From a bacterium (lineage in GTDB: Bacteria; ARS69): a stretch of 22,043 nucleotides of DNA. The position numbers and the translations under genes were made by a program. Shown one piece after another: positions 7,184 to 21,870 of this stretch. Below the pieces are notes generated by a model. It searched no databases. It was not told where the DNA came from and was given only the letters and a program-made list of their open reading frames with translations. The stretch is from assembly GCA_025774865.1 (NCBI GenBank), contig JALGZO010000584.1, positions 1 to 22,043 of the forward strand, in the 5' to 3' direction. Numbering within the stretch: the first letter of the stretch is position 1; each line of letters begins with the position of its first letter.

Positions 7184-9154
7184 TCAATGGGAGCCCTCCA
7201 GCGACCGAAGCAGTTCCCCGGCGGCAACGGTCAGATCCGGATTCCGCGAGGCCCGATTCAGGAGGTTGACCGCGTCTGCCGCACGCCCGATCAGAACATA
7301 CGAATCGGCGAGGGCGACGATCGCCTCCCACCCCTCGATCGAGTAGTCCGCGCCGACGCCCCTCTCGAGGCATCGTACGGCCGACGCATGGTCGCCGGTG
7401 AGATTGTACGCGAGGCCGAGGTACCGTAGAACTTCGGGGCTGTCGGCGTGTCCGAACCGCAGAAGAAGCTCGCCCAACTCGATCGCCTCGCCGCACAGGG
7501 CGACGTCCTCCGCGGACGGTTGCTCCTGCAATTGACGACGGCATCGAAGGATCTGCCAGACCAGCTGGAGTCTCCACAGCGACACCGTGGGGACCGATGC
7601 GCGGGCCGAGAAGAAAAGTCTTTCCGCCGTCGCGAAGTCTCCTTCCTCCATCCGGTACACGCCGACCACGAACGAGAGGGGCCGATCTGTCGCCCCGTGG
7701 AGACCCGGATCTCGCCAGCGCGCCACGGCGCGTCGATCGATCTCGCTCATCGACTCGCCGAGCTGGAGGCAGACTTTCTCGGCCCTCTCCGCGGCCGCGC
7801 GATTGTTGACTCGCAGAAACGGGATCTCGAACAGCGCCTTGATGCGGCTCGCAGCGACGTAATCCGTGTACACGCTTTGCCCCAGGCGGTCGGCGAAGAC
7901 TCGCCAGTCGGGAAGCTGCTCGATCTGGTGCTCTTCCACCCGAAGCGGACCGGTCAGCGACTCCATCGATCGGAGAATCGCCGTCGCGAAGAGCGCTTGT
8001 CCGCGGATCGTCAGGTGCACGTGATCGTCCATCAGGTCCCACCCGATGACGTGACCTTCGGCGGCGGACCGGAACTCCGCCTCCATGTCGCACAGGACGG
8101 CGCCTTCGTTCGCCGCGTCCAGAACGACGGCGCGGGCCGTGCTTGTCGCTCGCCACGGCATGGGATCGAGATCACGGGCTTGCAGGTAGGCAGCCCGCGC
8201 CTCCTCGTGGCGACCGAGGCGGAACAACGAGTCGGCGCGCGCGTGGTGCAGGCGCGCGGAGCGATCTTCGGCGCTCTCCTCCTCCACGCCGATCGGAGCC
8301 ATCCGCTCGTTCGTGGGAATCGTGCACAGGATGACGGGCACGCCACGCTCGCGGCACCGGCGAACCATCTTTCCGAGGTGCGCCCGCAAGGACCGCCTCG
8401 CACCCCGCCGGGCCGAGTCGTCGGGACCGATCCGGCGTTTCACCGCGACCTGCTCCATGAGCTTCCCGGACGGAAGCGGCCGCCGGGGACGCAGAGACGT
8501 CAACCACTGCACGAGGCCCGACCCGCGGAGCCAGCGCGTCGCGCTCATCGCCGCCGGAGAGCGCCCCGCCGAGTGCAGGGACTGGACACCGTAGGCTCCG
8601 TAGAACTCGTTGTTGCCGGACATGACGACCACCAGGTCGGGCTCGTGGTCGAGGACCGCTTCCAGGAAGTGCAGCACGGGGAAGCTCGCAACGGCCGTGG
8701 CGCCGAAATTCAGCACCTCGACGCCTCGGGCGCCTCCCCACGCCTCGCGGAGCATCGCTGCCAGGAAGGAGCCGTTCGTGAGGGGAAGCGGCTGCGGGAA
8801 GCCCTGGGCCGCGGATCCGCCGAGGATCGCGATGCGGACGGTGTTCGGAGGCTTCGGCGTCGTGAAGTGGACTTCGCGCATCCCGCCCGTGAGAGACAGA
8901 CGCGTGTCGAAGAACGTGTCGGTTCCGAGACGGTGCGTGGAGTACCAGTGTCGGCTCCCGTCGTCGCCGACATCGACGATGATCGGCGGGTAGCCTCCGT
9001 AGCCGAAGTGGCGGCAAACGAGCTCAGCGACACCCAGCCCGACGAACGGAAGAAGTACGGCCGCGACGAAAAAACCCAGCTCCTTGAGTCGCGTGCGCGG
9101 CGGCGGCTCAGCGCGGGGCCGGCGTCTCCTCTTCCGGTGCGGATTCTTCGCCAT
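7184..9154 (-). CDS. Membrane-anchored SGNH hydrolase with TPR-like repeats
   Basis: A 656-residue protein. A very basic N-terminus (KNPHRKRRRRPR) precedes one transmembrane helix (about 27-45), so the body should face the periplasm. The SGNH/GDSL fold is shown by AILGGSAAQG with nucleophile Ser114, GNNEF at 180-184 and a D-x-x-H pair (D377, H380) in DDHVHLT. Such enzymes remove acyl groups from glycans or lipids; the substrate here is unknown. Between the second and last catalytic blocks (about 300-335) is a TPR-like insertion (RADSLFRLGRHEEARAAYLQ), and residues 390-656 look like further helical repeats (YRMEEGDFATAERLF, YNLTGDHASAVRCLERG). The frame stays open to an ATG at 9247, but that extension crosses a perfect hairpin and reads as low-complexity sequence. 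I prefer ATG 9154, although it has no clear ribosome site. The next gene downstream on the strand is the kinase, after 54 bases. Confidence 0.85.
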   Translation of the reverse strand: MAKNPHRKRRRRPRAEPPPRTRLKELGFFVAAVLLPFVGLGVAELVCRHFGYGGYPPIIVDVGDDGSRHWYSTHRLGTDTFFDTRLSLTGGMREVHFTTPKPPNTVRIAILGGSAAQGFPQPLPLTNGSFLAAMLREAWGGARGVEVLNFGATAVASFPVLHFLEAVLDHEPDLVVVMSGNNEFYGAYGVQSLHSAGRSPAAMSATRWLRGSGLVQWLTSLRPRRPLPSGKLMEQVAVKRRIGPDDSARRGARRSLRAHLGKMVRRCRERGVPVILCTIPTNERMAPIGVEEESAEDRSARLHHARADSLFRLGRHEEARAAYLQARDLDPMPWRATSTARAVVLDAANEGAVLCDMEAEFRSAAEGHVIGWDLMDDHVHLTIRGQALFATAILRSMESLTGPLRVEEHQIEQLPDWRVFADRLGQSVYTDYVAASRIKALFEIPFLRVNNRAAAERAEKVCLQLGESMSEIDRRAVARWRDPGLHGATDRPLSFVVGVYRMEEGDFATAERLFFSARASVPTVSLWRLQLVWQILRCRRQLQEQPSAEDVALCGEAIELGELLLRFGHADSPEVLRYLGLAYNLTGDHASAVRCLERGVGADYSIEGWEAIVALADSYVLIGRAADAVNLLNRASRNPDLTVAAGELLRSLEGSH

Positions 9155-9178
9155 CAGACGCGAGCCTATCACGAACGA

Positions 9179-9207
9179 GAGCCCCGGGGTCCCTGCCCCC
9201 GGGGCTC
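9179..9207 (-). terminator. Perfect GC-rich hairpin, probable terminator of the glycan operon
   Basis: GAGCCCCGGGG (9179-9189) and CCCCGGGGCTC (9197-9207) are perfect 11-bp inverted arms around a 7-base loop. It lies 47 bases beyond the stop of the 271-residue secreted protein and 25 bases before the preferred SGNH start. There is no clear T-run on the exit side (TCGTTCGTG), so it is a T-poor hairpin typical of GC-rich genomes, or an RNA 3'-end stabiliser. Confidence 0.6.
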
Positions 9208-9253
9208 CGACACCCTGGCGTCCGAAGACAACCGGGCCGCGCTCCATGTCCGG

Positions 9254-10069
9254 CTAGCGGTAGAGCGACTTGACCATTCCGAACGAGCCGTCTTCCACGG
9301 AAATCGGGCCCTTGAGGTTCAGGTACTTGATCTCGTTCCAGACCGCCGTCAGGCCCGCGTTCGGGTTCCCGCCCTGCAGGAACGCCTGCAGGTGTCCACC
9401 CACGCGACCATCGTTGAGCATTCCCCAGAGTCCGTAGGGCGGATCCTCGCCGGGGTTGCCCTCATCGAAGGGCAGCTCGCCACTCGTGTACTGCGTGTTG
9501 TTGTACAGGAGCTCGTACTCGATCGTCGCCGGAGACTCCATCGACAGACCGTTCGGGAGATACGTGATCGTCAAGCGGATGGTCGTGCCCTTCGTGTACG
9601 TCACGCCTTGCTCGGCCGTGAACGAATAGAACGGCAGCCGTCCGCCAAAGGCGGCGATCTCCCCGTCCGTCGTACGGACGTTCAATCTTCCGTCCACGTC
9701 CTGGGACCACCAGGGCGAGACCTGGAGACCCGCCTCACCGTCGCTCGTGCCCGAGATCGTCAGGTTCGCGGAGAACTTGAACGCGGAGTCGTTGTTGAAG
9801 ACTGCCGCCGTGGCGCCTCCGTCGTCCGAGAAACGCCAGTTGTGCAGGTTCGCGAATCCCCCACAGTCGAGCACTTGATCGTCGATCGAAATCGTCCCGG
9901 GGTATGCATTAACCGTGGTGAGAACCGACGTCGGGCAGTCGTTGAAGATCCGCTCATTGATGAGGGCGCTGTCCACGTTCGGCGACGCGGAGGCGCCGCC
10001 GGGCGTGAGAACCGTTCCCACGAAAACCAGAACGGTCGCCAGAGCGCTGAAGTAGGTGATGTGTTTCAT
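9254..10069 (-). CDS. Secreted protein of unknown function, last gene of the glycan operon
   Basis: A 271-residue protein with a clear signal peptide (MKHITYFSALATVLVFVGTV, cleavage near ASA-S at about 28). The mature part is rich in Asn, Gly, Thr and aromatics with alternating beta-strand patterns, and has two cysteines (C45, C69) that could form a disulfide. Stretches such as FKFSANLTISGTSDGEAGL and TIRLTITYLPNGLSM suggest a beta-sandwich of the lectin or carbohydrate-binding type; I cannot name a family. No T9SS-like sorting domain is visible (it ends VKSLYR). ATG 10069 has AAGGAGG about 9 bases upstream. It is separated from the glucoamylase gene by 78 bases, the longest gap in the operon, and is followed by a hairpin. 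It could be a soluble glycan-binding protein; that is inference from context. Confidence 0.8.
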   Translation of the reverse strand: MKHITYFSALATVLVFVGTVLTPGGASASPNVDSALINERIFNDCPTSVLTTVNAYPGTISIDDQVLDCGGFANLHNWRFSDDGGATAAVFNNDSAFKFSANLTISGTSDGEAGLQVSPWWSQDVDGRLNVRTTDGEIAAFGGRLPFYSFTAEQGVTYTKGTTIRLTITYLPNGLSMESPATIEYELLYNNTQYTSGELPFDEGNPGEDPPYGLWGMLNDGRVGGHLQAFLQGGNPNAGLTAVWNEIKYLNLKGPISVEDGSFGMVKSLYR

Positions 10070-10147
10070 CGCTGCGTTCCTCCTTGGAGTATTCGATCAT
10101 CGATGGAATCGACACAATCGCGTTGTACCGACACCTCCCTTCCCGTT

Positions 10148-11782
10148 TCACTTGATGATGACGCACTTCTTTCCGTCGAATTCGCCGCCCGCCTCGAGGC
10201 GGTAATAGTAAACGCCGGCCGGAAGCCCTTCCCCTCGCAACGTCACCTGGTGGATTCCCGCCGACTGAATGCCCTCGGCCAGAGTACGAACGTTCCGTCC
10301 GGCCACGTCGTAGAGCACCAGTGAGACCGTTCCTTCCTCGCTGAGATTGTAGGAGATCGCCGTATGCCAATGGAAGGGATTGGGTACGTTCTGCGACAGA
10401 GAAAGCGCGCTCGACGGGGCCGCGGCGTCCACTCCGGTCGCGGGCACGAACCCCGCCCTGGAGAGGCCGGTCTGGAGGTCCGCGTTCTGGGTGAAGCGGT
10501 TCCAAACCGAGCCGTTCAGGTAGTTCTCCATCATGATGATGATGGGACCCTGGTCGATGCCCAGGTAGTCCGTGTCCCACCAGCCCTGCGTCAGATTGAA
10601 GGCATCCTTGAAGCCGTAGGGCCCCCAGAGCAGGGGATAGCTGTCATACAGGTTGTGAAGCACCGGAATCACCTCCGTCGGGGCGAACGGAATGGAGCTC
10701 GCCACCGCCGTGGGGGCGATCGTTCCGTTTTCGTTCTGCGGCGGCGGAGCCCCGTGTGCGAGATACCCGCCGGGGTCGTCGCTCGCGGTGATCCCCCACA
10801 GGTCCGCGCCATACCCCGTCCACCCGAACGGGTTCACGATGCAATACTCCCGCTGGGCCAGCGTCGCCCGCCGTGAGTTCTCGAAGTAGGTGATCCCCTT
10901 CGACTGCATGTAAATGTCCTGGATGGACCGGAAGTCGATCCAGCAGTGTGAGTATTGATGGCCGAAGAGCGGTGGGAAGTTCACGTAGGTCTGTCCGTAC
11001 TGGAACGACCACACGTAACCGCTCGTCCAGGTGAACCACGTGCTCGCAGGGACCGGAAACGTCGGAGAGCCGAGCGCGAGGATGTAGAGGATCATCGCTT
11101 CGTTGTAGCCGACCCACGTGCCGAACGGATCGAATCCCGATTCGGGCGTCCACCCCATGCGGATCCCGACGCCCGAGTTCCGGGACCAGTCCCAGTCCGC
11201 TCGGTAGTAGAGCGAGTCGGCGAGCGCTCGAATCTGGACTTCGTCCGCGTCGGCGCCGCCGAAGTACTCCTTGCAGTCCAGAATGCCGGCGAACAGCAGC
11301 GCAGAGTCGATCGTCGACAGCTCGCTGCTCCAGGTTCGCGTCGCCGTGGTCATGTCCAGGAAGTGGTAGAAGAGACCTTTGTACCCGATATTGCCGTTCG
11401 ACTCGGGCCCCTGCGGTCCGTTCCAGAACGTTTCCAGAGTCGTGAGGACGCGGTCGCGGCCCGCCGCGCGCGTCACCCACTCGTGATCAATACCGATACA
11501 GATCGCCGTAAGGCCGAATCCGACGGCCGCGATGCTCGCCGGTGATCCGGAGGTGCTCCGATCCTTGACGAGACCGTTGGACGCGTTCGCTTCGTTCCAG
11601 AAGTAGTCGAACGCACCGTGTTGCAGGCTGTCTACGAGGGCCGGCGTGGTGATCGCCTCCGCCGGCCCGACGCTCGCCGCGCTCACGGCAAGAGTCACCA
11701 GGGTGAGCACTCCCGCGAGGCCCCACCGGACCCTCCTCCCCCTTTTCCTCCTCGCTTCGCGCTCGCTGCTTGACTGCATCAT
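10148..11782 (-). CDS. PF10091 'glucoamylase' family protein (GH144-like) with C-terminal sorting domain
   Basis: A 544-residue exported protein. A long basic N-region and hydrophobic core (about 19-43, ending AEA) form a signal peptide. Residues 50-445 are the PF10091 domain, an (alpha/alpha)6 barrel with many family motifs: FDYFWNEAN (58-66), VGYNEAMILYILALGSP (224-240), FGHQYSHCWIDFR (273-285), FENSRRATLAQREYC (300-314), ENGTIAPTA (351-359), GFKDAFN (390-396) and GIDQGPI (408-414). The family includes GH144 endo-beta-1,2-glucanases; the name glucoamylase is historical. Residues 464-544 (NVPNPF...YDVAGR...GVYYYRL...CVIIK) match a T9SS type A/FlgD-like C-terminal domain, which predicts surface display or release. 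ATG 11782 is 4 bases after AGGAG and the next codon is also ATG with 7-base spacing, so either may be used. It follows the PorV-like gene after 7 bases. Confidence 0.92.
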   Translation of the reverse strand: MMQSSSEREARRKRGRRVRWGLAGVLTLVTLAVSAASVGPAEAITTPALVDSLQHGAFDYFWNEANASNGLVKDRSTSGSPASIAAVGFGLTAICIGIDHEWVTRAAGRDRVLTTLETFWNGPQGPESNGNIGYKGLFYHFLDMTTATRTWSSELSTIDSALLFAGILDCKEYFGGADADEVQIRALADSLYYRADWDWSRNSGVGIRMGWTPESGFDPFGTWVGYNEAMILYILALGSPTFPVPASTWFTWTSGYVWSFQYGQTYVNFPPLFGHQYSHCWIDFRSIQDIYMQSKGITYFENSRRATLAQREYCIVNPFGWTGYGADLWGITASDDPGGYLAHGAPPPQNENGTIAPTAVASSIPFAPTEVIPVLHNLYDSYPLLWGPYGFKDAFNLTQGWWDTDYLGIDQGPIIIMMENYLNGSVWNRFTQNADLQTGLSRAGFVPATGVDAAAPSSALSLSQNVPNPFHWHTAISYNLSEEGTVSLVLYDVAGRNVRTLAEGIQSAGIHQVTLRGEGLPAGVYYYRLEAGGEFDGKKCVIIK

Positions 11783-11789
11783 TCCGCTC

Positions 11790-12800
11790 CTAGAGCTCGA
11801 GGGTCAGTGTGAATCGATGGGTCTCCGCCAGATGCTCGTGGTCGGCCCAGGCGTAGTCGAACTGGAACCCGCTTTCTCCGAGCCCGCCGTACAAGCCCGC
11901 GCCCAACGTCAGCCCCATTTCAGAATCGGTCTGGAACATCGTTTGGTAGCCGGCACGTAGCGCGAGCACGTCGCTCCACGACCACTCGGCGCCCACGTTC
12001 GCGCTTTCTGTGTTGTCGTTCGGGTGCAACGCATCGACCGAGAAGAGCAACCGATTCCGATCGCTGATTCGATGCGGGTAGGTCAACCCCACCCGGAACA
12101 GGAGCGGCACGGGAAACTCGTCGGTGAATTGCACCGCGGGAAGCGCACTGTTGTCTCCGAACGCGTCCGGATCCGCATCGAACTGGATCGCCAGATCCGG
12201 CCCCATGTAGCGGGATTTCGTTCCCAGATTCGACAAGGCGGCCCCGAGCTGCAGGCCGTTCTCCTGCAGAGCGTACACCGTTCCGATGCTGAATGTGATC
12301 ATCTCCTGCGAGGTGTGCCAGATTCGCTCGTTCACGTAATTGATCTGAAAGCCGGTCGCAACGCGGTCCGAAAGCAGCCGTCCGTAGCCGATACCGATTG
12401 CGATGTCTCTGACGTCGTACCGCTCACCTGTCCCGAGCGGCTGGGAAACCGTCCTGACGTCGATGTCGCCGGAGCTGAGAGACGTGACGCTGGCGAAGAG
12501 AGTGCCGAATCGTCTGACCGGAACGGCGGCAGCCACGTAGTCGTAATTCATCCCCGCGAACCACTCGCTGTGCGTGAACTGGACCGCGGTCCGGTCGAGC
12601 GTGGCGATGGCTCCCGAGTTGAAGTAGACCGCTTCGATCCCCTGCACGAGAGCGACTCCGGCGTTCCCCATCGCCGCGACCCGCGCGCTCGGCTCGATGC
12701 CGAGAAACTGGGCCATCGATGTGCCGGTCTTGGTCTGAGCCGTCGCCGCGCCGGTGACCAACAACGTCGAAAGCAGGCTCAGCGCTGTGACTCTCCTCAT
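11790..12800 (-). CDS. PorV/PorQ-family outer-membrane beta-barrel protein
   Basis: A 336-residue protein with a signal peptide (MRRVTALSLLSTLLVTGAATAQ) and a body of amphipathic beta-strands ending in RFTLTLEL. The family signature near the N-terminus is present: a short hydrophobic segment followed by EPSARVAAMGNAGVA and VYFNSGAIA, as in PorV/PorQ/UPF0164 proteins (FadL-like barrels). PorV is the outer-membrane shuttle that carries CTD-bearing cargo from the T9SS translocon to the attachment complex in Bacteroidota. In other FCB phyla, relatives often sit beside CTD proteins. GTG (12803) and ATG (12800) are adjacent; I list the ATG. Its ribosome site is weak (GGA), and it starts 12 bases after the preceding stop, so coupling from upstream is likely. 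Confidence 0.88.
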   Translation of the reverse strand: MRRVTALSLLSTLLVTGAATAQTKTGTSMAQFLGIEPSARVAAMGNAGVALVQGIEAVYFNSGAIATLDRTAVQFTHSEWFAGMNYDYVAAAVPVRRFGTLFASVTSLSSGDIDVRTVSQPLGTGERYDVRDIAIGIGYGRLLSDRVATGFQINYVNERIWHTSQEMITFSIGTVYALQENGLQLGAALSNLGTKSRYMGPDLAIQFDADPDAFGDNSALPAVQFTDEFPVPLLFRVGLTYPHRISDRNRLLFSVDALHPNDNTESANVGAEWSWSDVLALRAGYQTMFQTDSEMGLTLGAGLYGGLGESGFQFDYAWADHEHLAETHRFTLTLEL

Positions 12801-12812
12801 CACGTCATCCGA

Positions 12813-15800
12813 TCACTTGATGACCGCGAACTTGCCGGTGGCCGCGCCGACGGCTCCTCCGTCGGCATGGAAGATATAGAGCCCGGGCGCCACGTCGAGA
12901 TTGTCCTTGGTTCGTAGATCCCATTCGACGAAACCGGCGCTGGAGCCTTCGTGTCGGAGCGTCTGTACGAGTTCTCCACGCACCGTGTAGATGCGGATCG
13001 TGCACTCCGCCGGCAGCCCCCGGAACTCGAGCCGACGCTCACCGCGCCCGGAGATCCCGAACCGCTCGGGTTCGAAGCTCGCCGAACCAATGTACGGATT
13101 CGGCACGACGTACGGTGCGAACTCCACCTTGGCCTGGCCGGGATCCACCTTCTCGCCCCGAGTCTCGAACGTGAACACGTCCTCGAACCCGAGCGGCTTC
13201 GTGAGCACGAGCTCGAATGAGTCGCCCGCGGCCGGTGGCTGCAGTGGTGACGGCAGCGGTACGGCGAGCTCCAGGCGCCACCTACGGTCAAACGCCGTCG
13301 GCGGCGCGCTCTGATCGTAGGCCACGATGTCGATTCTGTCGTTGCGGTGGCTGAGCGTGCCGTCGGAGTCAACGTCGCGGAACCCAAAGTCGAGCTTGAT
13401 CTCTCCGTGGACCGTGTGGGCGAATATCTCGAACTTCGCGGGCAGATAATCGGGGAGCTGAACGTCCAGCGAATCCGACGTGTCCACCACCACGTCGTGG
13501 AACACGACCGTGATGTCGTCTGGGAAGCCGGGGCGGCGCTCGTTGATCGAGAGCCCTTCGCCCTTGTAGGAAACGGCGAGGGTAGCGTTCGTGGGGCTCC
13601 CGGCCGCGAAGCCGGTCGCTTCACGATCCACCTCCACCGTCGCCGGCGTGTAGACGACCGGAAGCACGCCCGATCCGACGGGCCCGATCCCGCGCCCGTC
13701 CAGATCGTTTCCCGTGTCGAAGAACACCTCGTCCGTATCGAGATCCCTGAGCGTGTACGACGTGGCGCGGACTTCGCTCGGGTCGGACTGGAACGAGATC
13801 TCGAAGACGTGTCCGTTGGGAACCAGCTCCGAGTTCACGACCTCGACGGCCACCGTACCGGTGCCGTCCCCCTCGCGTTGCGTCGCCGCTTCGACGCCGG
13901 CGGGTACGTACCCCGCGATCCTCGGATTCGGACGAACGGCCACCACGTTCGGCGGAGCCACGAAGCCCCCGCGGAGCGTGCGAGAGACCGCGATCGCGTT
14001 CTCCGATGGGTAGAACGCGACCTCCGCGCCGGGGCTCGAGGGACCGTAGTCGTAGGCGGTTACGGCGTAGTAGTAGAGCTGGCCGTTCGTGACGCTGTAG
14101 TCGGTCCACGTGTGGGTGATTCCGCTGTTCGTGCCGAGGAAGTACGAAACGCCCTCGACCGACTGCTCCGAGAACCCGCTGCGGTCGTTGTCGAGGTCGA
14201 ACTGCGCGATCGGTTTCCCGTTGCCGATCGGGCCCGAGCCCGTCCCGGTCGTGATGACCTGCGGGTCCCGGAACTCCGGATCGGTGGACCGGTAAACACG
14301 ATAGCCCTCGAAGTCGATCTCGCCGGTCACCGGGTCCGCGCTGCGCTCGGCGACGTCGTCCCACGACAGGCGGACCCACCCGTCGCCGGCTTCCGCCGTC
14401 ACCGTCGGCCGCTTCGGTGGCACCGCGAAGCGGTAGTTCGCGTCGTAGATCTGCTGCACCGTCTGGACCGTGCGACGCAGCTCGCTGAGATCCGCTCCGA
14501 ACGCCAGTGCGAGGCTGAACCGCTCGCGCTGCCCGGCCTTCAAGGTGAACGGCCCCGACGCGAACAGGAAGCCGATGTTGTAGTTCTCGGCGACCGGCGC
14601 CCCGAAGCGTACGCTCGGGTCGGGGTCGGTGAACTGTTCGTAAAGCCGCTCGGGCCAGTTTGCGTTGTTCGTGAAGAACAGGATGTCGTCGATTTGCGGA
14701 TTCGGGTTTCCTTGGCCGGCGGCGATCCGGTTGAGGCGGAATCCGGTCAGACCGATCTGATCCGATTCGTGGAGGTCGGTGCGGTCGAAGTTCGGCTCGC
14801 CTTCCGTCGGAACTCCATCCCCTTCGCCCGTGTCACCGGTCCCGGTGAGGCCGTCGGCTCCCGTGTCGTGGAGCTCGGCCACCCAATCCAGGTCCTCGTC
14901 GCCCGTCCACCACCGCGCGTTGCGATAGGCCGGGCGGTTCGCGAGCGGGCCGTAGGTGATCTCGAACCGCCCGACGTCGTAGTTACCGGCGAGATACGCG
15001 TCGATCGCCCCCTGGCTCTCGAGGAGCAAGCCGGGACCCGTGTCGCGAGTCTCGTCCGTGATCCCGTCCTCGTCGTTGTCGACGCCGTCCAGGAAGTTTC
15101 CCGGCGTCTCGAGGTACGCGTAGCCGAGGTAGCCGGTCGTGGCGCACCCGCTCGAGAGACTCCGGCCGTGGCCGAACCGGTCCCAGGTGTACACGAGGTT
15201 GATGACCCGCTCGTCGAACTCCCGGTTGAAGAACGCATTGTCGTCGTCCGACTCGAAGATGCCGTCGCAGGAGAGCGTGGAGCCGCCGACGCCGGAGTCC
15301 ATGTACAGGCCGAAGATGATGTTGTCGTCGTAATCCGTCGTGCCCTCGTTCGTGATGTCGTAGTGCCAGAAGATCACGTTGCGGGCCTGGGGGTTCGACC
15401 ACTGGAAGCCCCGCACCTCGATCCGGAGCCCCAGACCCCGGCGGGTCGGATCGCGGCTGTCGGGGGTGAAGTCCCACGCGTCGTAGAAGTTGTCGTCCAT
15501 GACCATGTAGCTTTCCTGGTCGGCGACGATCTGCTTGCCGAAGTAGCCGTTCCAGCTGTCCGCCCAGCCCGGGTCGTCGCCGTCGGTCCGCTTGTCCGGC
15601 CACGAGTCGGGCCACGTGCGCGGGTCGTTACTGATGGCGGGGGAGCGCGCGGGATTGAGAACCGGGTCCGGCTGGAAGAAACCGGGGCGCGGCTCGAAAC
15701 GCATCACCCGGTTGAACTGCGGGCTGATCCCCTGCCTCTCCCGGAATCCCGTCTCCATGATGTGGGTCTCGACCCCGTTGTTCTGCGTGATCTTGGCCAG

Positions 15801-16097
15801 GACGAATGGCGTGATCCCGTCGCTGTAGTTCAGGCCGCTGCCCTTGGGGACCTCGGCCGAGTGAAAGACACTCAAGTCCACGTTGCCGGGATCCGGCGGG
15901 TAGTCGCCCACCATTCCGTAGTTCCAGAACACGGTGCGGATGTTGCTCGCGTCGTGGATTCCCGAACGCTCCGCACCGAGACGGCCGCGCTCGTTCTCGG
16001 GCACGGTGGGCTCCAGGTCGGCCCCCGCTCGCGGGATGGCCACGAGAGCCCAAAGGGCGCCCGCCGCCAGGACCGTTGTGCCGCCGCGCGCTCGCAT
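12813..16097 (-). CDS. Large secreted protein with fibronectin-III-like segment and C-terminal sorting domain
   Basis: A 1094-residue protein with a signal peptide (residues 1-26, hydrophobic TTVLAAGALWALVAI). Residues 50-555 form a large domain I do not recognise, rich in Asp, Asn and aromatics. It has Asp-rich loops that look like calcium sites (DGVDNDEDGITDE near 338-350) and two or three cysteines near 277 and 318. About 562-695 resembles a fibronectin type III domain (PTVTAEAGDGWVRLSWDD ... YYYAVTAYDYGP). A beta-rich region follows with a second Asp-rich loop (DVDSDGTLSHRND). About 1010-1094 is a T9SS-like sorting domain (VPNPYIG...IRIYTVRGELVQTL...PGLYIFHA...KFAVIK). The ATG (16097) overlaps the receptor's TGA by one base (TGATG) with GGGAGG about 6 bases upstream. 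Open frame continues further upstream inside the receptor gene, but that is a shadow frame. Placement right after the receptor suggests a partner lipoprotein-like role. Confidence 0.88.
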   Translation of the reverse strand: MRARGGTTVLAAGALWALVAIPRAGADLEPTVPENERGRLGAERSGIHDASNIRTVFWNYGMVGDYPPDPGNVDLSVFHSAEVPKGSGLNYSDGITPFVLAKITQNNGVETHIMETGFRERQGISPQFNRVMRFEPRPGFFQPDPVLNPARSPAISNDPRTWPDSWPDKRTDGDDPGWADSWNGYFGKQIVADQESYMVMDDNFYDAWDFTPDSRDPTRRGLGLRIEVRGFQWSNPQARNVIFWHYDITNEGTTDYDDNIIFGLYMDSGVGGSTLSCDGIFESDDDNAFFNREFDERVINLVYTWDRFGHGRSLSSGCATTGYLGYAYLETPGNFLDGVDNDEDGITDETRDTGPGLLLESQGAIDAYLAGNYDVGRFEITYGPLANRPAYRNARWWTGDEDLDWVAELHDTGADGLTGTGDTGEGDGVPTEGEPNFDRTDLHESDQIGLTGFRLNRIAAGQGNPNPQIDDILFFTNNANWPERLYEQFTDPDPSVRFGAPVAENYNIGFLFASGPFTLKAGQRERFSLALAFGADLSELRRTVQTVQQIYDANYRFAVPPKRPTVTAEAGDGWVRLSWDDVAERSADPVTGEIDFEGYRVYRSTDPEFRDPQVITTGTGSGPIGNGKPIAQFDLDNDRSGFSEQSVEGVSYFLGTNSGITHTWTDYSVTNGQLYYYAVTAYDYGPSSPGAEVAFYPSENAIAVSRTLRGGFVAPPNVVAVRPNPRIAGYVPAGVEAATQREGDGTGTVAVEVVNSELVPNGHVFEISFQSDPSEVRATSYTLRDLDTDEVFFDTGNDLDGRGIGPVGSGVLPVVYTPATVEVDREATGFAAGSPTNATLAVSYKGEGLSINERRPGFPDDITVVFHDVVVDTSDSLDVQLPDYLPAKFEIFAHTVHGEIKLDFGFRDVDSDGTLSHRNDRIDIVAYDQSAPPTAFDRRWRLELAVPLPSPLQPPAAGDSFELVLTKPLGFEDVFTFETRGEKVDPGQAKVEFAPYVVPNPYIGSASFEPERFGISGRGERRLEFRGLPAECTIRIYTVRGELVQTLRHEGSSAGFVEWDLRTKDNLDVAPGLYIFHADGGAVGAATGKFAVIK

Positions 16098-18754
16098 CAC
16101 GAGCCTCCCGATCCGAAGCTGATCCCGAGTTCGATCCGGCGAGGTCCGAAGTAGCGGGTCGGGTCGGCCAGCGTGACGCGGTCCGCGACCGGATTCCTCG
16201 AATAGAAGGGACTTCCGGAGCTCTCGAAAACGAAACCGTTGAAGAACCGCGCATCGAAGAGGTTGAACACCCGGCCGAACACACTGAGCCGCGACCCGAG
16301 GCCTCGGATCTCTTTCTCCGCGCGCAGGTCGACGAGCATTCCGCTCGGCCTCCGAGCCGAGTTCGCGAGCTGATCGAGACCGAACGCCTGCTCGATGATC
16401 GGCGTGTACGGCTGACCGCTCGCAGCCTTCACGATCGTACTGAACGAGTAGTTCCCAGGATCCGACAGCCCCAGCACCAGGTTGAACGTGTGTCGCTGGT
16501 CCCAGCTGAACGGGATGCGACGGGGGCGCGCGTCCTCGCCAGCCTCGGTCCGGTTCAGCGTCTCCTCCGGGTCGCTGGCGTTGCCCACCGCGCGCAGCCA
16601 CGTGTAGTCGATCGCGACCTCCGCCGGTCCGATCCGTCGGTGATCGAGGGCAACCGTGAACCCGAACACGTTCCCGAAATCGACGTTCGTCAAGCGCACG
16701 TACTGGGCGTCGTTGTAGGTGGAGATGTACTCGACCCCCAGCAGGTCCCTGATGTCCTTGTAGAAGACGGTGACGTCTCCGCCGAAATCCCGCGAGAACA
16801 CGTGCCGGTATCCCATCTCGTACTGCACCGTCTTCTCGGGCTTCACGTCGGGATTCCCCAGGACGGCGGGGATCACTCCGGCCTGGAGAGTCGTGAGGAC
16901 CGCGTAATCCGCATTGTTGAAGATGTCGCCGACCGCCGGGAACTGGTTGAAGTGACCGTACGCGAAGTGAACGGATCCCCGGTCGAGGATCGGGTACGCC
17001 ACTCCGAGCCGGGGAGAGAGCGGCGCCTTGATCGTCGTTTCCCGCGGCGTCGATTCCGGAGCGCCGGTGATCGCGTTCGCGGGGTTCGCGAGGTCGGAGG
17101 GAATCGTCGCGCGGGCATTGAAGTAGTCGAGCCTGAGCCCCGCCCTCACCATGAGGTCGGCCCATTCGATCTGGTCCTGCACGAACGCGGCTCCGAGGTG
17201 TGGATAATACGTCCGTACGAGAGGAAACTCGGGCGAGTCGTCGACCACGCGGTCGACGATCTGTCGACCACTCTCGATCACGAGTCGGAGGTGACCCCCC
17301 GGGGTTCCGAACTGGACCTCGGGCCGGTGAAACTCGCCTCCGATCTTGACGTGGTGCTTCGACGTCACGAGGCTCGTGAGAGTGGCCTTGTAGACTCGGT
17401 CGTCCGTTCTCTGGCGAAAACGGGTGAACTCGACCCCGGTCAGCACGTCGCCCGTCACGGGATCGATGAGCGGGTTCCTGGCCGCGTCGTAACGGGGGTC
17501 GAATACGTCCTCGTAGACGTAGTCCTGATAGTCGAAGTAGTTCTGTCGCACGCTCAGATCGAGATACATCAGTCGGCTGAACGAGTAGGTGACGTCGAGT
17601 CCGTGGGAAATCGAGAACGTCGTCTGCTCGGAGAGTCCGTCCGGATTGTTACGGAAACGGAAGTCGCGGGATCCGAAGTCGAGGCTCTGCCCCGCGATGT
17701 CGTTGACGATGGCCTGGTAGCTCGCCTTCGTGTTCGGGATCGACGTGTTCGTCAACTTCACCAATCCGGATTTTTCCCGTGCGAAACCCAGCGGTACTTC
17801 CGCACCGTCCCCGGTGGGAAACCGTGTGCCGTGCTCGAGGCTGACCGAGTCGGACGGTACGAAGGTGCGCGTACCGTACACGTATTCGTCCAGTGAGTAG
17901 TAGCGCCCGCTCAGGAAGAAGACCGTGTCGGGGATCGGCACGGGGCCACTCAACGTCCCCTGGTAGCTCTGGACGTCACCCGGGCGAAACGTCGACTCGA
18001 TGATCCGATTGTCCCCGTAGAGGAAGCCACCCGCCAAGACCTCACCGCTCCATTGGAAATCGGGCGTTCCCTCCTTGAGGACGGCGTTCACGACCCCGCT
18101 CATGGCCTGGCCGTACTCGGCGTCGAAGGTCCCGCTGATGACCTGGACTTCCTGCAGCAGCGACCGGTCGAGCCGGAGCACCGAGGAGTTGTCGTAGAGG
18201 TTGTTCACGCTGACGCCGTCAACTTGATACTGCACCTCGCCCAGACGCCCGCCGCGAAAGTGCCCGTCGACGACCCCGGCTTGCAGGTTGACGATGTCGT
18301 CGAGATCCTGCACGGGCAGGGATTTGATCACGTCGGCGCTGATGTTCGACTGGGAGCTCGTGAGGAAGAGGTCGACCGGGGGGCGCTCTGCGACCACGAT
18401 GACCTCCTCTATCGCACCGGCCGCGCCGAGCTGGACGTGTTGCCAGGTCGTGAGGTCGGCGGAAACGACGACTTCCTGGATCCGGACCGTCTCGTAGCCC
18501 GCTCCCGTCACCCGCAACTCGTAGGTCCCGGAGGGAACGTTGAGGATGACGTACGATCCGTCTTCGCCCGCTTCGGCCTGGAACGCCCGGCCCACGATGC
18601 CGACCGTGGCGTGCGCGACCGGATCGCCCACCCGGTCGACGATCGTGCCGGTGATCTTTCCGGTCGTGCCCGCCCAGAGCTGGCTGGCCGGCAGCGCCGC
18701 GAGCAATGAGATACAGGACGCTCGCAGGAGCCGTCGGGCCGAGCTGCCGATCAC
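16097..18754 (-). CDS. TonB-dependent outer-membrane receptor with carboxypeptidase-regulatory-like domain
   Basis: An 885-residue receptor. Signal peptide (CISLLAALPASQLWAG), then a carboxypeptidase-regulatory-like beta-sandwich (about 32-113: GKITGTIVDRVGDPVAHATV ... GSYVILNVPSGTYELRVTGAGY), a plug domain (about 125-235: AERPPVDLF, VKSLPVQDLDDIVNLQAGV-like, VQYQVDGVSVNNLYDN, TFDAEYGQAMSGVVNAV), and a 22-stranded barrel to the end. It should import an oligosaccharide or other large ligand with TonB-ExbB-ExbD energy; these genes are not here. The last strand (RRIELGISF) is followed by GSGGS, not the usual terminal aromatic. The start is GTG: GGGAG lies 7 bases from the GTG at 18754 but only 1 base from the GTG at 18760, so 18754 is preferred. 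The preceding gene ends 13 bases upstream. Confidence 0.94.
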   Translation of the reverse strand: MIGSSARRLLRASCISLLAALPASQLWAGTTGKITGTIVDRVGDPVAHATVGIVGRAFQAEAGEDGSYVILNVPSGTYELRVTGAGYETVRIQEVVVSADLTTWQHVQLGAAGAIEEVIVVAERPPVDLFLTSSQSNISADVIKSLPVQDLDDIVNLQAGVVDGHFRGGRLGEVQYQVDGVSVNNLYDNSSVLRLDRSLLQEVQVISGTFDAEYGQAMSGVVNAVLKEGTPDFQWSGEVLAGGFLYGDNRIIESTFRPGDVQSYQGTLSGPVPIPDTVFFLSGRYYSLDEYVYGTRTFVPSDSVSLEHGTRFPTGDGAEVPLGFAREKSGLVKLTNTSIPNTKASYQAIVNDIAGQSLDFGSRDFRFRNNPDGLSEQTTFSISHGLDVTYSFSRLMYLDLSVRQNYFDYQDYVYEDVFDPRYDAARNPLIDPVTGDVLTGVEFTRFRQRTDDRVYKATLTSLVTSKHHVKIGGEFHRPEVQFGTPGGHLRLVIESGRQIVDRVVDDSPEFPLVRTYYPHLGAAFVQDQIEWADLMVRAGLRLDYFNARATIPSDLANPANAITGAPESTPRETTIKAPLSPRLGVAYPILDRGSVHFAYGHFNQFPAVGDIFNNADYAVLTTLQAGVIPAVLGNPDVKPEKTVQYEMGYRHVFSRDFGGDVTVFYKDIRDLLGVEYISTYNDAQYVRLTNVDFGNVFGFTVALDHRRIGPAEVAIDYTWLRAVGNASDPEETLNRTEAGEDARPRRIPFSWDQRHTFNLVLGLSDPGNYSFSTIVKAASGQPYTPIIEQAFGLDQLANSARRPSGMLVDLRAEKEIRGLGSRLSVFGRVFNLFDARFFNGFVFESSGSPFYSRNPVADRVTLADPTRYFGPRRIELGISFGSGGS

Positions 18755-18767
18755 ACTCACTCTCCCT

Positions 18768-20672
18768 CTATTTCAAGAGGACGGTCTTCCCGTTGAGCGA
18801 CGTCCGAAGCGCACCGCTCTGCGGATCCAGCAGCTTGAGGCGGTAAAGGTAGACGCCCGCCGCCCTTCCGTTCCCGCGGAAGGACAGCTCGCGCACGCCG
18901 GGATCGAGCACTCCGACCGCCCGACTCTCGACGAGCCGTCCGGCCACGTCGAACACCTCGAAGTGGACCCGGCTCGAGTGCGGCACCGAGAACTGAATCG
19001 TCGCGCGTCTCCCCGGGTTCGGATAGCTGCGCGCCCATGCGTCGTTGCTGGCCACGCCCGCGACCTCGTGGACGCCCACCGGGGACGGCGCGAGGTACGC
19101 CCAGACCGGGCAGCACTCGTCTTCGTACTCGCGGTACCACCAAGTTCGTGTTCCGTAGCTGTCCGTGGTCGGGATGAAAGAGTCCCCATCGAGCAGGTTG
19201 ACCCCGACGAACAATCGGCCGTCTCCCAGGCCGGCCGGGTAGCCGAGCCCCTTCAGGTCGATCTCGAGCTCCGCCGTGTAGCCCGTGTCGGGGACCATGC
19301 CGAGCGTGTCGACGACCGTCCCCGGTTTGAGCTCGATCGCGACCTGCGCGTCACCCTGGCCGATCAGCGTCGCCAGGTAATCCTGGGGCAGCGCCGAGCC
19401 GTCGGCGTCGACCTGGAACGAGATCCGACGACTCATGAGCTGGTTGTCGTTACCCCGGAGGTCGTATTCGTTCAGCGTGATGAGGAAGCCGTCCCAGCGA
19501 TCGAACGAAGTGTGATGCTGCACCACGAGATCATTCACGTCGAAGCCGAAATAAAGGAAGTCCCCTTGGTGAAAGATCTTCACCTCGGCGTCGCCGGGAT
19601 CGACGACGAACGCGAGCAAGCTCCCGACGATCGCCGGCTGGAACTGCCCGGCCCGGTACGGGCCGACGGCCTCGTAGGTTTGCCTCAATGCGTCGTCGTC
19701 GAAACGGATATCGAACGTGTGAACCGTCGGATCGCTCCAGATCGCTTCCGACGGATCTCCGTCGATCGTGGGCGGCGAGCCGTCGACCTGCGCGATGACG
19801 AGCTCGGGGCCGACGTCCGGCACGGGGCCGGATGTCGTGGTCACGGTCGGGTTCGCATGAATGCGAACTTCGCTGTACCACGCCGCGTTGCCCCACGGGG
19901 ACTGCCACCAGACGCGGTTCGTGGTGAATTTCGGGCCATCGAACGGCCAGAACCAGTCGGAGTCGTAGATCGAGATGTTCCACTCGATGATGTCGCCGCC
20001 AGACTGCGTGACGTTGTAGCCCATCGCGGCGACGTTGAAGCGCATTTCGACCGTGTAGCTCTCATCGATCGTCGTGTCGTCATTGGAGAGGCCGTCCACG
20101 ACGGTGACGGCGTCCCAGTTCGCGATCTGCACCGGCGTCCGCGGCGACCCGGGAGGCCACTCCGCCCATATCCCGACGAAGCCCGGAGATCGACCGGCGG
20201 GCTGCGGGTCGGGGCCGGTCACGGTCGTGTCGGGATACCACCATGAGTAGAAGTACTCGGCCGGCGGCTTCGGGGCTCCCGGATCGGCGTGGTTCTTGAT
20301 CGCCATCAACAAGCCGTCGAAGCGATTGAACTCCACCGAACCGCCGACGGAGGAATCGCTCACCACGGCGCCCAGGTAGAGCTCGTTGCCGATGACGAGG
20401 AACTTCAGCGTGGCGGACGTGGGATCAGACGGGACGAATTGCCCCGCCTCGACCTTCCAGCCGCTCCCGGGGATGCCGGCGTCCTGTTCCCACTGGATCG
20501 TCATCGACTCCGCCTGCGCCCACTCCGCCTCGTCGAGCACGCCGTCGAGCGTGATGGGGCCCGTGGCGGTCCGGGCCCAGATGAGGTCTTCCCTCGCGAC
20601 TTCCCCGACCGCGGGCAGCGCCGCAGCGAGTGTCGTCGCGATCAGCAATGCTGTTACCGGTCCCGTTTTCAT
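18768..20672 (-). CDS. Secreted protein with two CBM9-like domains and a sorting domain
   Basis: A 634-residue protein with a signal peptide (VTALLIATTLAAALPAVGE). Two copies of a CBM9/DOMON-type beta-sandwich are marked by repeated openings: ITLDGVLDEAEWAQAE (about 40-55) and PTIDGDPSEAIWSDP (about 285-300). Each is followed by a strand-rich body containing YLGAVVSD or FLYFGFDVND and RFDGLL or RWDGFL. The C-terminus (about 545-634: SYPNPGRRATIQFSV...FDVAGRLVESR...GVYLYRLKL...KTVLLK) is a T9SS type A-like domain. CBM9 domains bind sugar chain ends; here I infer a surface glycan-binding role like SusE/F. The ATG at 20672 overlaps the LacI TGA (ATGA) and has AGGAGG about 9 bases upstream. Open frame continues to 21308 through the LacI gene, but that is a shadow frame. 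Confidence 0.9.
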   Translation of the reverse strand: MKTGPVTALLIATTLAAALPAVGEVAREDLIWARTATGPITLDGVLDEAEWAQAESMTIQWEQDAGIPGSGWKVEAGQFVPSDPTSATLKFLVIGNELYLGAVVSDSSVGGSVEFNRFDGLLMAIKNHADPGAPKPPAEYFYSWWYPDTTVTGPDPQPAGRSPGFVGIWAEWPPGSPRTPVQIANWDAVTVVDGLSNDDTTIDESYTVEMRFNVAAMGYNVTQSGGDIIEWNISIYDSDWFWPFDGPKFTTNRVWWQSPWGNAAWYSEVRIHANPTVTTTSGPVPDVGPELVIAQVDGSPPTIDGDPSEAIWSDPTVHTFDIRFDDDALRQTYEAVGPYRAGQFQPAIVGSLLAFVVDPGDAEVKIFHQGDFLYFGFDVNDLVVQHHTSFDRWDGFLITLNEYDLRGNDNQLMSRRISFQVDADGSALPQDYLATLIGQGDAQVAIELKPGTVVDTLGMVPDTGYTAELEIDLKGLGYPAGLGDGRLFVGVNLLDGDSFIPTTDSYGTRTWWYREYEDECCPVWAYLAPSPVGVHEVAGVASNDAWARSYPNPGRRATIQFSVPHSSRVHFEVFDVAGRLVESRAVGVLDPGVRELSFRGNGRAAGVYLYRLKLLDPQSGALRTSLNGKTVLLK

Positions 20673-21760
20673 GGTTGGGGGCCTCCTGCCTGGTTTGGAT
20701 GAGGACGGGTTCGCTTCCGTACCGGTCGGCTGTCCCGCCGTGACGCGGATCCGCGCGCTATCAGCCGGGAGCCGCACGAGTCCCGCACCACGAGAGGAGC
20801 GGGCAGCACTTCGTGCTTGGACTCCGGAGGGCCGTCGGATCTCAGCGATGAGATCAGAAGACGCACCGCCCGCGCCCCCAGTTCGTAGGCGTCGACGTGC
20901 ACGGTCGTGAGCGGCGGACTCAGGTAACGCGCGATCGCGATGTCGTCGAATCCGACCACGGCCAAGTCCCGCGGAATCTGGATGCGGCGCAGCGCGAGCG
21001 CACTGACCAGCCCGACCGCCATCGAATCGTTCGCCGCGAACACCGCGGACGGAAGGGAGCCCTGTCGAACGATCTCCTCCACGATTTCGTAACCCGAGGC
21101 TTCCGTGAAGTCTCCGCGAAACTCGAGCGCGGACGACGGCTCGACTTCCGCGTTGCGCAAAGCGTCCCGGTAGCCGCGAAGCCGCTCCGCAGCGTCCGCA
21201 TTGCCCGCCGGCCCGGCGAGCGTCGCGATATGGCGGTGACCGAGCGCCAGCAAGTGTCCCGTGGCGGAGTAGGCACCGTCGAAGTTCGCGATCGACACGG
21301 CGCTGCACCCGGTGACGTCGAAGCGCGGGTTCAGCAGGACGACCGGAAACGTCTGCTTGATTCGATCGATCCCATGCGCCGAGCCGGCGTCCGGCGACAT
21401 GATGACCAGTCCGTCGATTCGCCCTTGCATCGACCGCGCGGCGGATAGGACGGTGTCAGTGTCGGCGTGAGAACTGGAAATGAGTGTCTGGAAGCTCTGC
21501 TCACGCGCGGCGTGGTCGAGGCCGCGGATGACCTCGGAGAAGAACTCCCCGTGGAGATCGGGGAGGAGCACGCCGAGCGTGTGAGTCCGGCGGGTGCTGA
21601 GACTCCGCGCCGCCCCGTTCGGCCAGTAGTCCAGTGCGTCCGCCGCGGCTCCGACCCGCTGTCGCGTCGCTTCGCTGACTCGGGCGCTGCCGTTGAGAGC
21701 GCGCGACACCGTGGCGATCGAGACTTCCGCCGCCCGGGCGACGTCGCGGATGGTAGCCAA
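20669..21760 (-). CDS. LacI-family transcriptional regulator
   Basis: A 363-residue regulator. The N-terminal helix-turn-helix with hinge helix is complete (TIRDVARAAEVSIATVSRA, residues 3-21, then NG and ALDYWPNGAARSL). Residues about 60-330 are a periplasmic-binding-protein-like sugar-sensing domain (LGVLLPDLHGEFFSEVIRG ... FAANDSMAVGLVSAL ... VVGFDDIAIARYLSPPLTTV). A 30-residue basic tail (ARGSASRRDSRPVRKRTRP) is extra for the family. The start is TTG at 21760 with GGGAGA about 5 bases upstream. Its stop overlaps the CBM9 gene's start (ATGA), so regulator and first structural gene are made together. A perfect palindrome 75-88 bases upstream is the probable operator, implying autoregulation and operon-wide control by a sugar ligand. 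Confidence 0.95.
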   Translation of the reverse strand: MATIRDVARAAEVSIATVSRALNGSARVSEATRQRVGAAADALDYWPNGAARSLSTRRTHTLGVLLPDLHGEFFSEVIRGLDHAAREQSFQTLISSSHADTDTVLSAARSMQGRIDGLVIMSPDAGSAHGIDRIKQTFPVVLLNPRFDVTGCSAVSIANFDGAYSATGHLLALGHRHIATLAGPAGNADAAERLRGYRDALRNAEVEPSSALEFRGDFTEASGYEIVEEIVRQGSLPSAVFAANDSMAVGLVSALALRRIQIPRDLAVVGFDDIAIARYLSPPLTTVHVDAYELGARAVRLLISSLRSDGPPESKHEVLPAPLVVRDSCGSRLIARGSASRRDSRPVRKRTRPHPNQAGGPQP

Positions 21761-21834
21761 CTGATTCTCCCACAGGGTGTTCCACGATCCGAGCTCGGTA
21801 GCTTCCGGGCACGTCTCCGACGACGGAAACGGTA

Positions 21835-21848
21835 TGTAAACGTTTACA
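21835..21848. promoter_or_regulatory. LacI-type operator
   Basis: TGTAAACGTTTACA is a perfect 14-bp palindrome with a central CG, the classic shape of LacI/GalR-family operators. It lies 75 bases before the LacI start and covers the predicted -10. I found no second copy of this palindrome in the window. Confidence 0.8.
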
Positions 21849-21870
21849 CGAAACTGGGGGTCTCCGTCAA
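21843..21870 (-). promoter_or_regulatory. Predicted promoter of the glycan operon
   Basis: On the minus strand TTGACG (21870-21865, 5 of 6 to the -35 consensus) and TGTAAA (21848-21843, 4 of 6 to the -10) are 16 bases apart. The -10 is inside the operator palindrome, so a bound repressor would exclude polymerase. Confidence 0.55.

Follow-up and report, generated by a model that had tools for sequence, protein, structure and literature searches.

A LacI-controlled operon, probably for beta-1,2-glucan acquisition, in which a TonB-dependent receptor, a T9SS-type protein and a PorV-type barrel may do the job of SusC/SusD

Introduction

SusCD pairs are the model for glycan feeding by Gram-negative bacteria. 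In Bacteroidota, the polysaccharide utilization loci built on SusC/SusD combine, under common regulation in one operon, a TonB receptor, a surface-exposed partner beside it, further binders and glycoside hydrolases. The same arrangement is predicted for the operon analyzed here, which lies on a 22,043-nucleotide stretch of bacterial DNA (contig JALGZO010000584.1 of assembly GCA_025774865.1; hereafter the window). The window operon differs from those loci in having no SusD: the partner of its TonB-dependent receptor (TBDR) is UNK, a beta-rich protein of the type IX secretion system (T9SS) type, whereas SusD is an alpha-helical lipoprotein. The receptor falls outside the SusC model, the unit includes a PorV-type barrel, and the regulator is LacI rather than a hybrid two-component system or extracytoplasmic function regulator. 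We think it fairly probable that this is a LacI-controlled operon for beta-1,2-glucan acquisition in which TBDR, UNK and PorV together do the job of SusC/SusD.

The enzyme chemistry and the concept of a beta-1,2-glucan cluster are already known. The SGL cluster of Ignavibacterium album holds GH144, GH94, a TonB-dependent transporter and an ABC transporter for sophoro-oligosaccharides (PMC8861115), an enzyme and transporter set shared with the window operon type. That paper is enzyme-centered, and its text mentions neither SusD nor LacI; the I. album cluster also has a GH35 glucosyltransferase, of which none was seen in the flanks scanned here. The closest characterized enzyme considered here, XcSGL, is a tested beta-1,2-glucanase (PMC12102758). 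The window hydrolase resembles it in its catalytic domain and key residues and differs from it in having a T9SS-type C-terminal domain and in sitting in a TBDR-UNK-PorV operon. As in the T9SS shuttle PorV and its cargo, the operon's barrel belongs to the PorV/PorQ family and the C-terminal domain of UNK matches that of PorZ. The difference is that this barrel is one of several paralogues in the window genome, another of which lies beside PorU on contig C615.

Results

The window is the whole of one contig (C588) from a fragmented, 4.7-Mb metagenome-assembled genome. The initial annotation described a run of seven minus-strand genes, and all seven are present in the order that it gave, from 21760 to 9254. 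They are listed below with the elements that flank them.

21835..21848, no strand assigned: LacI-type operator TGTAAACGTTTACA, a perfect 14-bp palindrome about 75 bp ahead of lacI
20669..21760, minus strand: LacI-family repressor (Peripla_BP_3, 8.6e-41; LacI helix-turn-helix, 1.6e-18), whose orthologues head the operon in relatives
18768..20672, minus strand: CBM9-like secreted binder with a T9SS-type C-terminal domain; its start codon, ATG at 20672, overlaps with the stop of lacI
16097..18760, minus strand: TBDR with a CarboxypepD_reg N-domain (PF00593, 1.3e-29)
12813..16097, minus strand: UNK, 1,094 residues, left as an unknown in the initial annotation; AlphaFold2 model and structure matches below
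11790..12803, minus strand: PorV/PorQ-family outer-membrane barrel (NF033709, 1.7e-54, 185.6 bits, cut-off 90)
10148..11782, minus strand: candidate GH144 endo-beta-1,2-glucanase with a T9SS C-terminal domain (PF10091, 1.3e-80; E228, F273, Y340)
9254..10069, minus strand: SEC, a small secreted protein of 271 residues, predicted concanavalin-like jelly roll without a T9SS tail (AlphaFold2 pLDDT 84.3)
9180..9207, minus strand: GC-rich perfect hairpin past the last gene, a possible terminator without a U-tract

The first six genes overlap or lie at most about 9 nt apart, which makes a single transcript likely; a gap of 78 nt precedes the last gene. The receptor scores 38 bits against the SusC model TIGR04056 (cut-off 368). 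The binder of the window matches PF06452 (CBM9_1) below threshold, and its annotation as CBM9-like is supported through its family rather than by the window protein alone: 18 of 26 members match PF06452 (best 2.5e-13) and 24 of 26 match Por_Secre_tail, so the label of a CBM9-like protein with a T9SS-like tail stands. The claim of a PorV relative inside the operon holds, with a score above the NF033709 cut-off. A profile search for the binder family and a sequence search for the PorV barrel each found no solved relative. The predicted fold of SEC is lectin/CBM66/PL7-like, and its gene is kept in many related loci.

Conservation of gene order in relatives was the refutation test set beforehand for the initial annotation, and its outcome favors that annotation. 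Three of the four family members have full UNK relatives, and in them the order LacI-CBM9-TBDR-UNK-PorV-GH144-SEC is kept up to contig ends; the operon was not found in the fourth, a smaller, complete genome. When 84,980 species genomes were scanned, 48 loci turned up, and the gene order is unchanged in nearly all of them. Their records bear the names Krumholzibacteriota, Eisenbacteria, Latescibacterota, KSB1, Ignavibacteriota, Gemmatimonadota, Fibrobacterota and Bacteroidota, several of these phyla being little studied. UNK identity is 53 to 76% in all but two of these loci. Phylum labels are partly intermixed in the UNK tree, for which horizontal transfer and misnamed bins are both possible explanations. 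Pairwise distances of CBM9, TBDR, UNK and PorV correlate with one another (r of 0.74 to 0.92), and those of GH144 correlate less with its partners (0.59 to 0.67), perhaps because GH144 paralogues exist. One locus (L071, genome G004) has another GH144 gene (17078-18592) after the jelly-roll gene, and tandem GH144 genes are present in several loci named Ignavibacteriota or Bacteroidota.

The hydrolase, annotated as PF10091/GH144-like, keeps that assignment, and we regard it as a candidate endo-beta-1,2-glucanase of GH144, clan GH-S. Its GH144 domain shares 52% identity with XcSGL (XCC2207, 8XUL) over 401 positions, and the clan GH-S residues are kept, with E228, F273 and Y340 equivalent to E239, F286 and Y367 of XcSGL. 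Genes for GH94 enzymes, SOGP-type where linked, flank about half of the loci, either divergent from lacI or after PorV; other loci are flanked by GH3, GH2 and ABC sugar transporters. The identity to XcSGL, the retained clan residues and the flanking GH94 genes make beta-1,2-glucan very likely the substrate of the operon, which narrows the "glucan" of the initial annotation to one polymer. The window genome also holds a sequence matching Agrobacterium Cgs (8RF9, 796 bits), cut by contig ends.

The AlphaFold2 model of UNK (64 sequences) is beta-rich, with a pLDDT of 87.6. It comprises a signal peptide, an N-domain (residues ~36 to 556) that we take to be a beta-supersandwich from what the matched enzymes are known to carry, an FN3-like region (~556 to 985) and a T9SS C-terminal domain (985 to 1094). 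Its structure matches are glucodextranase, GH94 phosphorylases and GH116 enzymes, in each case their N-domains, with Z scores of 15 to 20 (about 230 to 280 aligned residues; root mean square deviation, 2.9 to 4 Å); the predicted fold is that of GH94/GH15/GH116 N-domains, and the catalytic barrel of those enzymes is absent. Over its final 110 residues, UNK matches the C-terminal domain of PorZ (5M11; Z of 12.4, 92 residues, 2.0 Å, 27% identity), and there are weak profile matches to the PorZ (2.3e-4) and PorU tails. Two other assignments of UNK were dropped: as a SusD-fold protein, since the model is beta-rich and no SusD entry is among the structure matches, and as an enzyme, since the model has no catalytic barrel.

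UNK is tightly linked to its two neighbors. We scored a triad where TBDR lies directly upstream and PorV directly downstream of UNK on the same strand, using a profile of the UNK N-domain and loci with enough DNA on both sides. The triad is present in all 31 close loci and in 23 of the 27 diverged ones. Some diverged triads have GH13 alpha-amylases and CBM20 proteins as neighbors (L131, L133, L115, L117), in some cases with LacI. As the initial annotation had claimed, SusD is missing: PF07980 was not found in the window genome or its four relatives, and the window proteins gave no SusD match. A survey of 290 genomes found the UNK N-domain in 46, SusD in 7 and both in 3. We read the triad as a putative SusCD-like capture and import module built on T9SS. 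The literature searched, from which most subscription journals were missing, yielded no account of the triad or the operator, nor of how widely the triad occurs or of its relatives beside starch enzymes.

Other triads were seen along the way. The window genome has a second one (L034, contig C549, 6424-12604) consisting of TBDR, a 748-residue protein with FN3 and C-terminal domains, and PorV; other members of the family share it, the small genome G001 among them, and the gene that follows it (517 residues in G001) has no Pfam match. Diverged triads at L141 (6217-8223) and L127 (15150-18596) adjoin C25 and C10 family peptidases.

The binder, UNK and the hydrolase had each been credited with a T9SS-like C-terminal domain, and each has one: the binder and hydrolase match TIGR04183 (5e-5 and 4.4e-7), and UNK is PorZ-like by both profile and structure. 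Two parts of the T9SS, SprA and PorU, have matches above cut-off among the proteins of the window genome. A search of ten genomes for GldM, run without a positive control, did not find it. On this sequence evidence, T9SS is likely to export UNK, the binder and the hydrolase. PorU and the PorV paralogue beside it (L178, contig C615) are probably a housekeeping T9SS pair.

The operator supports the built-in LacI switch that had been proposed. It is the sole match to TGTAAACGTTTACA in the 4.7-Mb assembly with up to one mismatch allowed, and with up to two mismatches tolerated, 33 of 38 related loci carry the motif in the 250 bp ahead of lacI, where the remainder of the same loci would predict 0.0017 occurrences per 250 bp. 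Where lacI has moved downstream (L107) the motif precedes the binder gene, and it does so too in two loci in which no lacI was found (L077, L080), indicating that the operator belongs to the operon. A second copy stands ahead of a displaced jelly-roll gene (L086), which places that gene in the operon's regulon. In relatives, the operator also has matches on other contigs (L156, L157, L163), but no related genes were seen within 1.5 kb of them, and a sigma-70 promoter scan found nothing.

At the other end of the operon, the perfect hairpin reported near 9179 is there, with a GC stem of 11 to 12 bp. It has no U-tract, a terminator scan did not flag it, and the full hairpin region shows no unusual stability when compared with shuffles (z of -0.8). 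With the U-tract missing and the scan negative, a role as terminator is just plausible.

Downstream of the operon lie genes for an SGNH hydrolase with TPR repeats (7184-9247, start probably at 9154), a Ser/Thr protein kinase fused to a TolB-like propeller (4409-7129, outside the operon), argG and argH. SGNH-type proteins also adjoin the triads of L119 and L115. Antisense open reading frame clusters in the set (C1, C2, C4, C9) were judged to be GC-rich artifacts.

Discussion

Gene content and order, the operator, the enzyme family with its key residues, the predicted folds and the linkage of the triad were established, and a mechanism can be proposed around them. With no inducer present, LacI would sit on the palindrome ahead of its own gene and keep the operon off. 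A beta-1,2-gluco-oligosaccharide or a product, which we infer to be the inducer, would free LacI and allow the outer-membrane and surface apparatus to be made. The CBM9-like and jelly-roll proteins would hold the polymer while GH144 cuts it at the surface into sophoro-oligosaccharides. UNK, with its C-terminal domain serving T9SS export, would cross the outer membrane and be held there by the operon's PorV-type barrel acting as anchor. Its beta-supersandwich would take the oligosaccharide and, in a complex with TBDR, pass it to the receptor, which is the job of SusD done by an unrelated fold. The GH94 phosphorylase, encoded beside lacI in relatives and on another contig here, would complete degradation.

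The weakest parts of this proposal are the putative sugar binding by UNK and the role of PorV, and several observations count against it. The beta-supersandwich is known from enzyme N-domains and alone is no proof of sugar binding. Four of the 27 diverged UNK loci are without the triad, and some diverged triads adjoin peptidases, not glycan enzymes, so the module may serve non-glycan cargo. The failure to find GldM, in the uncontrolled search above, bears on how T9SS would be energized. The GH94 gene of the window genome is not on the window contig; it lies on contig C312 and is without about 58 N-terminal residues, a truncation that fits, without proving, C312 adjoining the window, and a search for a divergent GH94 start at the window end gave nothing convincing. 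In a rival account, beta-1,2-glucan is taken up but UNK is a structural or assembly partner of TBDR or PorV, or a surface scaffold, with the CBM9-like protein alone capturing the sugar. The UNK fold matches non-catalytic N-domains, its tail is a T9SS sorting domain, CBM9 is a recognized sugar-binding type, and a triad that also stands beside peptidase genes suggests a cargo-neutral role. Yet triads recur with varied glycan enzymes, and the CBM9-like gene is missing in several of them (L114, L115, L117, L131), a pattern to be expected were UNK the partner that stays with TBDR throughout. We consider the rival account unlikely, although it deserves serious weight.

Two further accounts concern the glucan itself. 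If the operon were there to turn over or remodel cyclic beta-1,2-glucan made by the cell itself, and not to take up nutrients, its TBDR, its T9SS-tailed secreted enzyme, its LacI control and the ABC sugar transporters of relatives would be out of place, being marks of catabolism, and we find this very improbable. PF10091 relatives include exo-acting and transglycosylating enzymes, and the hydrolase might accordingly act on another beta-glucan or a mixed polymer, in which case this would not be a beta-1,2-glucan locus. The identity to XcSGL, the clan residues, the linked SOGP-type GH94 and the published I. album cluster with a similar enzyme set (PMC8861115) all speak against that, and we give it slightly less credence still.

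Returning to beta-1,2-glucan acquisition with UNK in the place of SusD, we offer a broader proposal more tentatively, as something short of an even call: TBDR-UNK-PorV may be a general outer-membrane glycan-uptake module of the Fibrobacteres-Chlorobi-Bacteroidetes (FCB) group, swapped between loci for beta-1,2-glucan, starch and other glycans as SusCD is in Bacteroidota, with a T9SS-delivered beta-supersandwich replacing SusD. The clear operator and single likely substrate leave the regulon of the window operon open to testing. If the proposed mechanism is true, the task of SusD has been solved twice, with the TonB receptor retained and SusD replaced by an unrelated T9SS-type protein. The UNK N-domain would then be an annotation marker for such loci, and the module would account for glycan feeding in many uncultured lineages without SusD.
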